Source: Streptomyces venezuelae ATCC 10712
GTDB taxonomy: Bacteria > Actinomycetota > Actinomycetes > Streptomycetales > Streptomycetaceae
DNA length: 64,000 nucleotides
Assembly (NCBI RefSeq): GCF_008639165.1
Contig: NZ_CP029197.1
Coordinates: forward strand, 1,736,001 to 1,800,000
Direction of reading: 5' to 3'
Under the pieces are notes generated by a model. The model did no database searches. It worked only from the letters and a program-made list of their open reading frames with translations, and was not told the origin of the DNA. Both the position numbers and the translations under genes were made by a program. Below, piece after piece: positions 24,817 to 58,302 of this stretch (position 1 is its first letter; every line of letters starts with the position of its first letter).

Positions 24817-24846
24817 GGTGCCCGACGGTATCGGGGACCACTGACA

Positions 24847-37052: not shown

Positions 37053-37074
37053 ACCCTACTGGCGGGCACCGACA
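37053..37074 (-). promoter_or_regulatory. RecA-NDp / PafBC-type promoter of uvrC
   Basis: Minus strand: TGTCGGTG (37074-37067), exactly 8 nt, TAGGGT (37058-37053), then 7 nt to the ATG. This is the mycobacterial LexA-independent damage promoter pattern TTGTCRGTG-N8-TAnnnT; the transcript would be leaderless. Confidence 0.8.
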
Positions 37075-53680: not shown

Positions 53681-54259
53681 CTACAGGTGCGGCAGGATCG
53701 CGGGCATCAGGTCCTGGAAGGTGCGGCCGTTGGCCGGGTTGCCCAGGGCCGTCATCTGCCAGCCGGAGCCGGCCCGGTGCACCTTCGCCATGATCTGCGC
53801 GGTGTAGCTGCCACCACCGTCGAGGGTGTAGCGCGCGAGCTCCTGACCGTTCGTCTCGTCGACGATCCGGCAGAACGCGTTCTGCACCTCCTGGAACGTC
53901 TGGCCGGTGAACGAGTTCACCGTGAAGACGATCTGGTCGATGTGGACCGGGACGCGCTCCAGGTCGACGAGGATCGCCTCGTCGTCACCGCCCTGCCCGG
54001 CGCCGCCCACGAGGTTGTCACCGGTGTGCTTGACCGAGCCGTCGTCGCTGACCAGGTGACGGAAGAAGACCACGTCGACCGGCTGCTTCTCGGCGAACAG
54101 GACGGCCGAGGCGTCCAGGTCGATCTCCCGGGTGCGCGAACCGAAGAGACCACGGCGCGGCGCGGCCTGCCAGCCGAGACCCATCCGCACCTGCGTGAGG
54201 CTGCCCCCGCCCCGCTTCTCCAGGCTGATGGCCTGGCCCTTGGTCATGTTGACCGACAC
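53681..54259 (-). CDS. terD: TerD family stress protein
   Basis: 192-aa TerD/CABP protein: MTKGQAISLEKRGGGSLTQVRMGLGWQ opens the domain; acidic calcium-binding loops at EIDLDASAVLF and HTGDNLVGGAGQGGDDEAILVDLERVP, closing with GRTFQDLMPAILPHL. TerD proteins confer tellurite and other stress tolerance and affect development in Streptomyces. GTG 54259 (after AGAGGGG) or ATG 54247. The fusion gene follows 63 nt later, likely in one transcript started by the damage-type promoter at 54323-54344. Confidence 0.92.
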   Translation of the reverse strand: MSVNMTKGQAISLEKRGGGSLTQVRMGLGWQAAPRRGLFGSRTREIDLDASAVLFAEKQPVDVVFFRHLVSDDGSVKHTGDNLVGGAGQGGDDEAILVDLERVPVHIDQIVFTVNSFTGQTFQEVQNAFCRIVDETNGQELARYTLDGGGSYTAQIMAKVHRAGSGWQMTALGNPANGRTFQDLMPAILPHL

Positions 54260-54322: not shown

Positions 54323-54344
54323 ACCCTACGCAGCGCCACCGACA
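54323..54344 (-). promoter_or_regulatory. RecA-NDp / PafBC-type promoter of terD
   Basis: TGTCGGTG (54344-54337), 8 nt, TAGGGT (54328-54323) on the minus strand, giving a transcript start near 54316 and a leader of about 57 nt before the terD GTG. Confidence 0.7.
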
Positions 54345-54401: not shown

Positions 54402-56531
54402 TCAGGCGAGTCCCGCCTCCTTCATCTGGCGCAACTCCTTCTTCAGCTCCCCCACTTCGTCGCGGAGCCGGGCGGCGACCTCGAACTGCAGCTCGGCGGC
54501 GGCGGCGCGCATCCGGTCGGTCATCTCCTCGATGATCGCGGCCAGTTCGGTGGCGGGCCGGTCGCCGAGCTCGACGGTGGAGCCGGCCTTGCCCTTGCCC
54601 TTGACGCCGTGCGCGGCGAGCGAGGGGACGGGGGCCTTGGTGCCCTTGCCCTCCTTGCCCTGGCGGTAGCCGGTGCCGAGCAGCTCCTCGGTGTCGATCT
54701 CCTCGCGCGCGATGGTCGCGACGATGTCGTTGATCTTCTTGCGGAGCGGCTGCGGGTCGATGCCGTGCTCGGTGTTGTACGCGATCTGCTTCTCGCGGCG
54801 CCGGTTGGTCTCGTCGATGGCCTGCTCCATCGCCGGGGTGATCCGGTCGGCGTACATGTGGACCTGGCCCGAGACGTTGCGCGCGGCGCGGCCGATGGTC
54901 TGGATCAGGGAGGTGCCGGAGCGCAGGAAGCCCTGCTTGTCGGCGTCGAGGATGGCGACGAGGGAGACCTCGGGGAGGTCGAGGCCCTCGCGGAGGAGGT
55001 TGATGCCGACGAGGACGTCGTACTCTCCGGCGCGCAGCTCGCGGAGGAGCTCGATCCGGCGCAGGGTGTCGACGTCGCTGTGGAGGTAGCGCACCTGGAT
55101 GCCGAGCTCGAGGAAGTAGTCCGTGAGGTCCTCGGCCATCTTCTTGGTGAGGGTGGTGACGAGGACCCGCTCGTCCCGCTCCGTGCGCAGCCTGATCTCG
55201 TGGACCAGGTCGTCGATCTGGCCCTCGGTGGGCTTGACGACGACCTCGGGGTCGACCAGGCCGGTCGGGCGGATGATCTGCTCGACGAAGCCGTCGCCGC
55301 GCGACAGCTCGTACGTCCCGGGGGTGGCCGAGAGGTAGACGGTCTGGCCGATGCGCTCCTGGAACTCCTCCCACTTCAGCGGGCGGTTGTCGAGGGCGGA
55401 CGGGAGCCGGAAGCCGTGGTCGACCAGGGTCCGCTTGCGGGAGGCGTCGCCCTCGTACATGGCGCCGATCTGCGGCACGGTGACGTGCGACTCGTCGATG
55501 ACGAGGAGGAAGTCCTCGGGGAAGTAGTCGAGGAGGGTGTTGGGCGCGGAGCCGGGCTCGCGGCCGTCGAAGTGCATCGAGTAGTTCTCGATGCCGGAGC
55601 AGGAGCCGATCTGGCGCATCATCTCGATGTCGTACGTGGTGCGCATGCGCAGGCGCTGGGACTCCAGGTGCTTGCCCTGCTTGTCGAGTTCGGCGAGGCG
55701 GCCCTCCAGCTCGCGCTCGATGTCGTTGACCGCGCGCTCCATGCGCTCGGGGCCCGCGACGTAGTGGCTGGCGGGGAACACGTACAGCTCGCGGTCCTCG
55801 CTGATGACCTCGCCGGTGAGCGGGTGGAGGGTGGAGAGGGCCTCGATCTCGTCGCCGAACATCTCGATGCGGACGGCGAGCTCCTCGTACACCGGGAAGA
55901 TCTCGATGGTGTCGCCGCGGACGCGGAAGGTGCCGCGGGTGAACGCGAGGTCGTTGCGCGTGTACTGGATGTCGACGAAGCGGCGCAGCAGCTGGTCGCG
56001 GTCGACCTCCTCGCCGACCTTGAGCGGGACCATCCGGTCCACGTACTCCTGGGGCGTGCCGAGGCCGTAGATGCAGGAGACGGAGGCGACCACGACGACG
56101 TCCCTGCGGGTGAGCAGGGAGTTCGTCGCGGAGTGGCGGAGCCGCTCCACCTCCTCGTTGATCGAGGAGTCCTTCTCGATGTACGTGTCCGACTGCGGCA
56201 CGTACGCCTCGGGCTGGTAGTAGTCGTAGTACGAGACGAAGTACTCCACCGCGTTGTTCGGGAGGAGCTCGCGGAACTCGTTCGCCAGCTGGGCCGCCAG
56301 CGTCTTGTTCGGCGCCATCACCAGGGTGGGGCGCTGGAGCTTCTCGATCATCCACGCGGTGGTGGCCGACTTTCCGGTGCCGGTGGCACCGAGGAGCACG
56401 ACGTCCTTCTCGCCCGCGCGGATGCGCCGCTCCAGGTCGGCGATGGCCGCCGGCTGGTCGCCGCTGGGCTTGTACTCACTGACGACCTCGAAGGGCGCCA
56501 CCGAACGTTCGATCTTGGAAACGGGCCGCAT
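54402..56531 (-). CDS. uvrB: Excinuclease ABC subunit B
   Basis: 709-aa helicase-like UvrB, which verifies damage loaded by UvrA and recruits UvrC. Motif [16 protein letters not shown], the beta-hairpin [49 protein letters not shown]-type [13 protein letters not shown], motifs [33 protein letters not shown] and QTIGRAARN, and the C-terminal UVR helix [30 protein letters not shown] 56531 sits 6 nt after the -10 of its promoter, so translation is probably leaderless. Confidence 0.97.
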
Positions 56532-56537
56532 GCAACC

Positions 56538-56559
56538 ACCGTACGACCCGGCACTGACA
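56538..56559 (-). promoter_or_regulatory. RecA-NDp / PafBC-type promoter of uvrB
   Basis: TGTCAGTG (56559-56552), 8 nt CCGGGTCG, TACGGT (56543-56538) on the minus strand, then 6 nt to the ATG. Spacer and -10 are identical to those of ogt at 57705-57726. Confidence 0.85.
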
Positions 56560-56593
56560 GTCGGGCGGTGATCGGCCCCCGCGAGGGCCCCGG

Positions 56594-57487
56594 TCACCAG
56601 TCCTGGGAGCGGTGGCCGGCCCGCGGGACGCCCCTGCGAGCGGCCCGGCCCGCGGGGCGGGCCGTCCAGTTCGCGGGCTCCCCGTAGGACGGGACGTGAC
56701 GCGGGGCGGGCACACCGGGGCGGTACGGCGCCCGGGCCGTCGCCTGCCAGTCCGGGTCCCCCATCACGAGCAGCGGGTCGAACATGACGACGACGGCGGC
56801 CAGGATGAGGAAGACCGCCGGGCCGATCAGCATCGGCAGCAGCGGTGAGGCGGTGCCCCCGGTGGCGGTGGCGGGGCCCCCGCCGTGCAGATGGACGCTG
56901 ACCGCCGCCATGGCGGTGTAGTGCATACCACTGACGGCGACGCCCATCACCAGGCTGGCGCCGAGACTGGCCAGAAATCCATGGACGGAGACGGCCGCCC
57001 AGAGGGCCGCGGTGGCGGCCACGACGGCGATGACCACGGACAGGGCGACGGTGAGCGTGTCGTACTCGATGCGCCCCTGGAGGCGCATCCCGGCCATCCC
57101 GAGGTAGTGCATGGTGGCGACGCCGAGACCGGTGATGGTCCCGCCGGTGACCAGGGTGAGGGCGGTCGCCCCGCGGTATCCCACGATGAAGATGCCGATG
57201 CCGACCATGAGGACGGCGACGCCCAGGCTGGCGAAGGTGATGGGGAGGTCGTAGTTGATGGGCGCCTGAGCGACGGAGAAGCCCATCATCGCGATGAAGT
57301 GCATGGTCCAGATGCCGGTGCCGATCGAGGTGGCGCCGAGGGCGAGCCAGCCCGCCTTGAAGCTGTCGCGGTGGCGGAGCGATCTCGTGGTGCACCGAAG
57401 GCCGAGGGCGCCGCCCAGGCACGCCATGAGAAAGGCGGCCACCGGCGTGACGAGCCCGTAGCTGAATCCGTCGACCGTGCCCTGCAT
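56594..57487 (-). CDS. MHYT-domain membrane protein
   Basis: 297-aa protein with seven predicted membrane helices containing the three MHYT repeats: [11 protein letters not shown] (about 60), [11 protein letters not shown] (about 124) and [11 protein letters not shown] (about 188). MHYT domains are proposed to bind copper and sense a diatomic gas; usually they are fused to GGDEF/EAL output domains, but here only a 60-residue Pro/Arg-rich cytoplasmic tail follows. ATG 57487, GGAGG 10 nt upstream. A perfect GGTAGTACTACC palindrome at 57544-57555 lies in its promoter area. Confidence 0.9.
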
Positions 57488-57543
57488 GAGCGTATGTCCT
57501 CCACCCCTGGTGCCACGTCGTCCGAAAACAGTCGGTACCGCTG

Positions 57544-57555
57544 GGTAGTACTACC
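57544..57555. promoter_or_regulatory. 12-nt palindrome upstream of MHYT gene
   Basis: GGTAGTACTACC, 57 nt before the MHYT start codon; a possible regulator site. Confidence 0.4.
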
Positions 57556-57704
57556 GGGGCGAGATTATGGCGCGCCGGGGGCCGCACGACCATGTGACCG
57601 GGGAATTTCCCCTCGCGAGACCGGAGCGAGACCGGCCCGTGATCTTCTCTCCCCGGCATCGGGACCCGCGCGGCCGGACGGCCGGGAGTCGCTTCCGACC
57701 GCGC

Positions 57705-57726
57705 TGTCGGTGCCGGGTCGTACGGT
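57705..57726 (+). promoter_or_regulatory. RecA-NDp / PafBC-type promoter of ogt
   Basis: TGTCGGTG (57705-57712), 8 nt CCGGGTCG, TACGGT (57721-57726), then 6 nt to ATG 57733: leaderless start. Confidence 0.85.
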
Positions 57727-57732
57727 GGCGTC

Positions 57733-58302
57733 ATGGACATCGAAACGGGGCCGACGGACGACGGGCGGGCGGCCACGGTGGTGGAGTGGACCGTCGTGGA
57801 GAGCGCCATCGGGCCGCTCTTCCTCGCCGCGACCGGGCGCGGGCTCGTCCGCGTCGAGTTCCACGCCGACGCGGAGCGCCGGGAGCGGATGCCGGCGCGG
57901 CTGGCGGGACAGCTCGGCGCGGAGCCGGTGGAGCGCGCCTCGGGACTTCTCGCCGAGCCGGTGCGACGCCTCGACCGGTACTTCGCCGGTGAGCCGGACG
58001 CGCTCGACCTGCCCCTGGACTGGAGCCTCACCACCGGATTCAACCGGCAGGTGCTGCGCGAACTGGCGAGCGGTGTCCCGTACGGCACGGTCGTCGGGTA
58101 CGGGGAGCTGGCCAGGCGCGTGGGGCAGCCGGGGGCCGCGCAGGCGGTGGGGGCGGCGATGGGCTCCAATCCGCTGCCGCTGGTCGTGCCGTGCCACCGC
58201 GTGGTGGAGAGCGACGGCGGGCTCGGCGGCTTCGGCGGCGGTCTGGAGACCAAGCGCCGACTGCTCGCGCTGGAGGGCGTGCTGCCCGCGCCGCTGTTCT
58301 GA
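57733..58302 (+). CDS. ogt: Methylated-DNA-protein-cysteine S-methyltransferase
   Basis: 189-aa suicide repair protein that removes O6-alkyl groups from guanine. C-terminal domain carries PCHRVV with acceptor C154, preceded by the helix-turn-helix [29 protein letters not shown] and the GSNPLPLVV strand; N-terminal domain is the short Ogt type. ATG 57733 placed by its damage promoter. Divergent from the MHYT gene and close to uvrB; both share the promoter sequence. Confidence 0.94.

Follow-up and report, generated by a model that had tools for sequence, protein, structure and literature searches.

The 64-kb stretch of Streptomyces venezuelae DNA analysed here (64,000 nucleotides, henceforth the window) contains the repair genes uvrB and ogt in inverted orientation, each preceded by an exact match to the pattern TGTCRGTG-N8-TAnnnT, the two matches lying 1.2 kb apart (Table 1). 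The mechanically called uvrB reading frame extends further upstream than the ATG listed. Between both sites lies a further gene on the minus strand (56594-57487), which we take to encode an MHYT-like membrane protein; it is oriented toward uvrB, so that some read-through into uvrB is possible.

Table 1. Promoters of the RecA-NDp class and associated genes, numbered by position in the window.
Feature	Position	Strand	Basis
uvrB promoter, RecA-NDp class: TGTCAGTG-CCGGGTCG-TACGGT	56538..56559	-	exact motif match
-10 box TACGGT of uvrB	56538..56543	-	sequence; ATG 6 nt further on
uvrB, ATG at 56531, predicted leaderless mRNA	54402..56531	-	ORF and Pfam UvrB_inter PF17757
ogt promoter, RecA-NDp class: TGTCGGTG-CCGGGTCG-TACGGT	57705..57726	+	exact motif match
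-10 box TACGGT of ogt	57721..57726	+	sequence; ATG 6 nt further on
ogt, methylated-DNA-protein-cysteine methyltransferase, 189 aa, predicted leaderless mRNA	57733..58302	+	ORF and Pfam PF01035, PF02870
Third RecA-NDp site, before uvrC, ATG 7 nt after -10	37053..37074	-	exact match, ORF/domain scan
Fourth RecA-NDp site, 63-75 nt before TerD-domain gene (53681-54259)	54323..54344	-	exact match, ORF/domain scan
Fifth RecA-NDp site, before MFS transporter gene, ATG 8 nt after -10	24825..24846	-	exact match, ORF/domain scan

A preliminary description of this DNA had pointed to near-identical sequences upstream of uvrB and ogt on opposite strands. This holds true, and the common run is somewhat longer than claimed: it spans 25 nt, from the C before TGTC through the GG after the -10 box, with a single A/G difference, and the inverted repeat can be extended to 53 nt at 74% identity. 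The spacing claimed between -10 box and start codon also agrees with the sequence, with GGTTGC filling the interval in uvrB (-10 ending at 56538, ATG at 56531) and GGCGTC that in ogt (-10 ending at 57726, ATG at 57733). The proposed TTGTCRGTG-N8-TAnnnT layout stands in its TGTCRGTG-N8-TAnnnT core, which is exact at both sites, but not in its leading T, which is replaced by C in both, leaving eight of the nine letters of TTGTCRGTG. This T is a consensus letter that we do not take as defining; among 71 Streptomyces uvrB/ogt pairs it is the commonest base before TGTC, but it occupies this position in only 52% of uvrB and 62% of ogt promoters. Read by eye, neither promoter has a TTGACA-like housekeeping -35 hexamer at 16-19 nt from the -10 box.

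Exact copies of TGTCRGTG-N8-TAnnnT occur five times in the window, compared with 0.01 on average, and never more than 1, in 100 shuffles. A genome-wide search, which the preliminary description had proposed, returned 38 exact sites in 8,223,505 bases against one match to the reversed pattern, the control used for motif counts; the window shuffles and this control together rule out chance occurrence of the motif. The pattern is present in all 61 Streptomyces genomes that are at least 95% complete, with 20 to 77 sites per genome and 2,888 sites overall versus 31 reversed-pattern matches. Across a phylum sample of 148 genomes, the mean was 50.4 sites per genome in the genus Streptomyces (n=7; 8 control matches in total) and 15.2 in the rest of the class (n=9; 6 control matches in total). 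Other classes yielded 88 sites in 60 genomes with a PafC homologue (mean 1.5; control 10) and 50 sites in 72 genomes lacking one (mean 0.7; control 34). Since enrichment outside the class is weak even where a PafC homologue is encoded, we do not take this link between PafC and the motif across the phylum as proof. The exact pattern misses a variant, TGTCRGAG-N8-TAnnnT, found at the same distance to the ATG of uvrB in relatives from the same order outside the genus. In three other members of the class (G138, G157 and G197), near-identical motif copies with the same spacer occur, perhaps in repeated elements.

For target assignment, each of the 38 sites was mechanically given one nearby open frame, and these frames were scanned for domains. 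Pfam or NCBIfam matches or operon context identify 16 of the 38 as repair- or replication-type genes, a raw count. They comprise spore photoproduct lyase, uracil-DNA glycosylase, RuvC (the stretch also encodes a RuvA domain), a PD-(D/E)XK nuclease, a RecD2-HHH protein, UvrC, UvrB, Ogt, an AlkZ-like glycosylase, RadA, DnaX, PcrA/UvrD, DnaN, RecA, a YoaA/DinG-like helicase and rpsF, behind which an ssb-like frame was read from the sequence. Among the remaining targets are transporters, TerD, PhoH, WGR, SWIM and DUF4132 proteins as well as one Sigma70_r4 frame (L073); six chosen frames gave no Pfam match, and some of these may be non-genes. Close to the end of the chromosome, two DUF4132 genes separated by about 3.4 kb carry one RecA-NDp site each. 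The exact core, the genome-wide excess over the control, the 16 repair or replication frames and the presence of genes for PafB and PafC make the assignment of the uvrB and ogt sites to the RecA-NDp (PafBC-type) promoter class, as originally suggested, well supported at the sequence level.

At 18 of the 38 sites, an ATG that opens a frame of 100 or more codons stands 6-9 nt downstream of the -10 box, compared with 0.73 per 4-nt bin elsewhere, which makes leaderless mRNAs likely. Within the genus, 117 of 121 genomes have the uvrB site ahead of an ATGCGRCC start; the ogt site was collected in 67 hand-picked rows (67 of the 121 genomes) and is also found before 75 of 80 named ogt loci. The gap between -10 box and start is 6 or 7 nt in all 117 uvrB and 67 ogt rows, though 4 to 9 nt were permitted, in line with the leaderless layout put forward previously. 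In S. lividans, about 20% of genes are leaderless, with a preference for AUG (PMC6742748). We regard the uvrB and ogt mRNAs of S. venezuelae as likely leaderless, a prediction drawn from promoter spacing.

The presumed activator is encoded at genome positions 1,380,001-1,396,000, in the order pafA, an FKBP-type gene, pafB, pafC and tat genes, where pafA, the FKBP-type gene and the tat genes were named from their sequences. PafB matches both the M. smegmatis PafBC-RNA polymerase complex (7p5x, E 4.6e-58) and Arthrobacter PafBC (6sj9, E 1.8e-49), and PafC matches the former (E 9.2e-54); a short piece of PafB, searched against the solved structures, gave no match. In an alignment of the full protein, numbered by hand, R46 and R50 of PafB align with R44 and R48 of Arthrobacter PafB, residues of the recognition helix that read DNA (PMC6789036). 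Work in mycobacteria has established that single-stranded DNA activates PafBC, that the helix-turn-helix (HTH) of PafB reads the -26 motif and that the HTH of PafC contacts sigma domain 4 (PMC11804915); the motif there is PafBC-dependent, and PafBC acts with SigA (PMC8223512, PMC11804915). Expression of uvrB is 37% lower in an M. smegmatis pafBC mutant (PMC5656591). Mitomycin still induces the alkA-ogt operon of M. tuberculosis when recA is deleted and pafBC is silenced (PMC8151990), so that ogt need not be a PafBC target in that organism. By analogy, DNA damage in Streptomyces would be sensed by PafBC, with single-stranded DNA as the probable signal, and the activator would bring housekeeping RNA polymerase to the uvrB and ogt promoters. 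As in the complex from M. smegmatis, PafB would read the TGTCRGTG region and PafC would engage sigma domain 4. Transcription would begin on the A of the ATG. Regulation of uvrB and ogt by PafBC in this genome appears likely.

Control by the SOS repressor LexA was considered and dropped, as neither promoter has a box beyond chance level. No match to TCGAAC-N4-GTTCGA with up to two mismatches is found at the uvrB or ogt promoter. A three-mismatch match at 56531-56546 overlaps the -10 box and start of uvrB, but this is at chance level for the window, which contains 38 matches with up to three mismatches versus 28.07 expected (sd 5.77). This agrees with the LexA-independence ascribed to both promoters. 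Elsewhere in the genome, recA, ruvC and the ABC permease gene vnz_15995, all mitomycin-induced in S. venezuelae (PMC9380542, Table 1), each have an exact published SOS box together with a RecA-NDp site, which makes dual control likely. The recA box lies at -119 or -155 depending on the start chosen (printed as -162), that of vnz_15995 at about -29 (printed as -30), and that of ruvC within conserved coding sequence. Further 14-mers published in PMC9380542 were recovered exactly at lexA-1 (-53, as printed), lexA-2, vnz_26265 (-207, printed -199), vnz_22770 (-109, printed -105), vnz_00275 (-48, printed -42) and parE (-166 to a GTG, printed -157). The two dnaE2 boxes of the same paper were not found in genome stretches chosen by gene number, nor were those of alkB, infC, vnz_21525 and vnz_31145 in the loci examined. 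A prophage SOS-box 14-mer is present in 8 of 61 Streptomyces genomes and is unspecific as a mark of species; at its two copies in this genome, the distances to the start disagree with those published. The exact boxes recovered by gene number very probably mark the genome as S. venezuelae or a strain extremely close to it, a question to which the ruvC box contributes nothing.

A different activator has been proposed for promoters of this shape. In S. lividans, a 2019 study with mapped transcription starts described TGTC-N12-TANNNT promoters enriched for COG L (replication/repair) and credited them to another sigma factor, PafBC being unnamed in its section on promoters (PMC6742748). Because RGTG plus N8 amounts to 12 nt, this is the same layout as RecA-NDp, and in principle such sites could be read by a dedicated sigma factor of the SLIV_13900/SCO4895 type in place of PafBC and the housekeeping sigma factor. 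The S. lividans authors' proposal is consistent with the absence of 12-nt-spacer promoters among HrdB ChIP targets, where S. coelicolor showed no 12-nt peak (growth conditions are not stated in that section), and with SCO4895 expression that coincides with repair genes under ciprofloxacin (PMC6742748). The SCO4895-type gene itself sits behind a 12-nt-spacer promoter (PMC6742748), however, and is equally likely a target. The -10 consensus TANNNT is moreover of housekeeping type, and in mycobacteria the motif depends on PafBC working with SigA, as cited above. Judged by coordinates, no exact site is directly followed by any of the 96 genes listed with a Sigma70_r4_2 match (150 of 290 candidates were scored), and the weaker Sigma70_r4 match in frame L073 (E 4.4e-7) again appears as a target. 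In vitro, SCO4895 is reported to have transcribed 15 target genes (PMC9205884). We consider a dedicated sigma factor quite unlikely. Still less credence goes to ClgR as the activator: it has been reported to bind a mycobacterial RecA-independent promoter (Wang et al. 2011, cited in PMC5656591), but it is PafBC that bound the motif in vivo and whose complex with RNA polymerase and promoter has been solved (PMC6789036, PMC11804915).

For the close resemblance of the two promoters, either promoter duplication or strong selection on the spacer had been suggested. Whole-spacer identity is not in itself surprising: among the 703 pairs formed by the 38 sites, column frequencies predict 0.65 pairs with identical spacers, and one is seen, uvrB/ogt. 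The alignment of upstream regions across streptomycetes that the preliminary description had called for reveals a conserved GYCG-TACSGT core, with spacer positions 1 and 2 free. Spacer positions 5-8 read GYCG (GTCG or GCCG) in 116/117 uvrB and 62/67 ogt rows, and TACSGT forms the -10 box in all 184 rows (117 uvrB and 67 ogt). In a second set of 71 pairs, consisting of 70 named loci and the present window, GYCG occurs in 71/71 uvrB and 64/71 ogt promoters and TACSGT in 71/71 and 66/71, respectively. The two elements together are found at none of the 144 other motif sites of three genomes (this one, G013 and G047), which argues that one additional core is maintained in uvrB and ogt alike. G occupies position 3 in 110/116 uvrB versus 45/67 ogt rows and positions 5-8 hardly vary, whereas positions 1 and 2, CC in both promoters here, are variable in uvrB and ogt rows alike. 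Support for strong selection therefore covers the -10 box together with the spacer's 3' half, but not the spacer as a whole. A natural spacing variant is seen in one of the 117 uvrB promoters (genome G005), the lone exception, in which the spacer is the 7-nt GGGGCCG. We suggest that the near-identity arose from two separate sites under one extra constraint, GYCG before the -10 box and TACSGT as the -10 box, while agreement at the less constrained spacer bases, mainly positions 1 and 2, would be due to chance in this genome.

Had one promoter recently been copied onto the other, whether by local duplication or through gene conversion of the inverted copies, this would account for the short distance, the inverted orientation and the extendable repeat in S. 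venezuelae. Such an event should leave uvrB and ogt promoters more alike within genomes than between them, yet identical spacers occur within 3/67 genomes versus 2.96 on shuffling the ogt spacers, and within 3/71 versus 5.0 in the second set, and the 30 nt upstream share 11.07 matches within genomes compared with 10.87 after shuffling (71 pairs; P 0.25). On these tests we exclude recent duplication or conversion, to which we assign a negligible chance. An old duplication, in or before the Streptomyces ancestor, followed by drift at the free positions, is harder to dismiss, although we still think it improbable. It would explain a core common to both promoters and absent from the 144 other sites, and it fits with the genes being neighbours in most Streptomyces loci seen, with both promoters present in 70/80 named loci; in one genome (G012), uvrB and ogt lie about 1 Mb apart. 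Outside the genus, 11 of 12 genomes retain, no further than 35 nt from the match start, a uvrB site with 9 or more of the 11 letters, but the GYCG-TACSGT core was not seen in uvrB of these 12, and flank similarity does not exceed chance. In four of the 12, all relatives within the order, ogt is preceded by a less perfect version of the site (TGTCRG, -10 CACAAT, 8-9/11 letters, start codon 6-7 nt behind), which suggests that the ogt site may be as old as the uvrB site and separate from it. From sequence comparison, the two sites may thus be old and separate or the products of an old duplication. In the ogt search, a record titled Microtetraspora glauca fell among Streptomyces (82% identity, with the uvrB-ogt layout shared) and is possibly misnamed.

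Taken together, our main reading is that the uvrB and ogt sites belong to the RecA-NDp class, that PafBC likely recruits housekeeping RNA polymerase there to make predicted leaderless mRNAs, and that their near-identity likely reflects an additional constraint common to two separate sites; we give it a probability of roughly 85%. More tentatively, and with more doubt than confidence, we speculate that Streptomyces mounts a second damage response independent of LexA, comprising about 20-77 promoters in each genome, that went unnoticed in S. venezuelae and was ascribed to another sigma factor in S. lividans. The promoters of uvrB and ogt might form a private sub-class of this response, whose GYCG-TACSGT core would make a further sequence-specific contact and give this pair of genes a basal level or damage threshold distinct from the rest. 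Whether Streptomyces has a PafBC-type response was left open by a 2022 study of S. venezuelae, in which an initial motif search suggested a lack of conservation of the PafBC motif known from M. smegmatis (PMC9380542). The 38 sites versus 1 here and 2,888 versus 31 in 61 genomes indicate that such promoters are present, provide a target list for a pafBC mutant and offer a simple account of the S. lividans 12-nt-spacer promoters. Among the open-licence PMC papers listed in our searches, no title or opening of an abstract reported a genome-wide PafBC regulon in Streptomyces.

The class itself is not new to the genus, as RecA-NDp promoters have been reported for recA and SCO6735 of S. coelicolor, the latter UV-inducible (PMC5087735). 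That work concerns single genes and gives no genome-wide count, and a term search of it did not find uvrB or ogt. The LexA/SOS regulon of S. venezuelae (PMC9380542) is likewise a damage response, in the same species, and shares recA, ruvC and vnz_15995 with the sites described here; it differs in relying on LexA repression, with the uvrB and ogt promoters having no SOS box at up to two mismatches. A close parallel is offered by the mycobacterial recA RecA-NDp (P1) promoter and the PafBC regulon, which have the same TGTCRGTG-N8-TAnnnT motif, no housekeeping -35 at 16-19 nt and likewise repair genes among their targets, with PafB and PafC encoded in both groups. PafBC dependence has been demonstrated in mycobacteria and is predicted for the sites of this genome. 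The promoters of uvrB and ogt in Streptomyces add the GYCG-TACSGT core to the mycobacterial pattern, and many targets in this genome are predicted to be leaderless.
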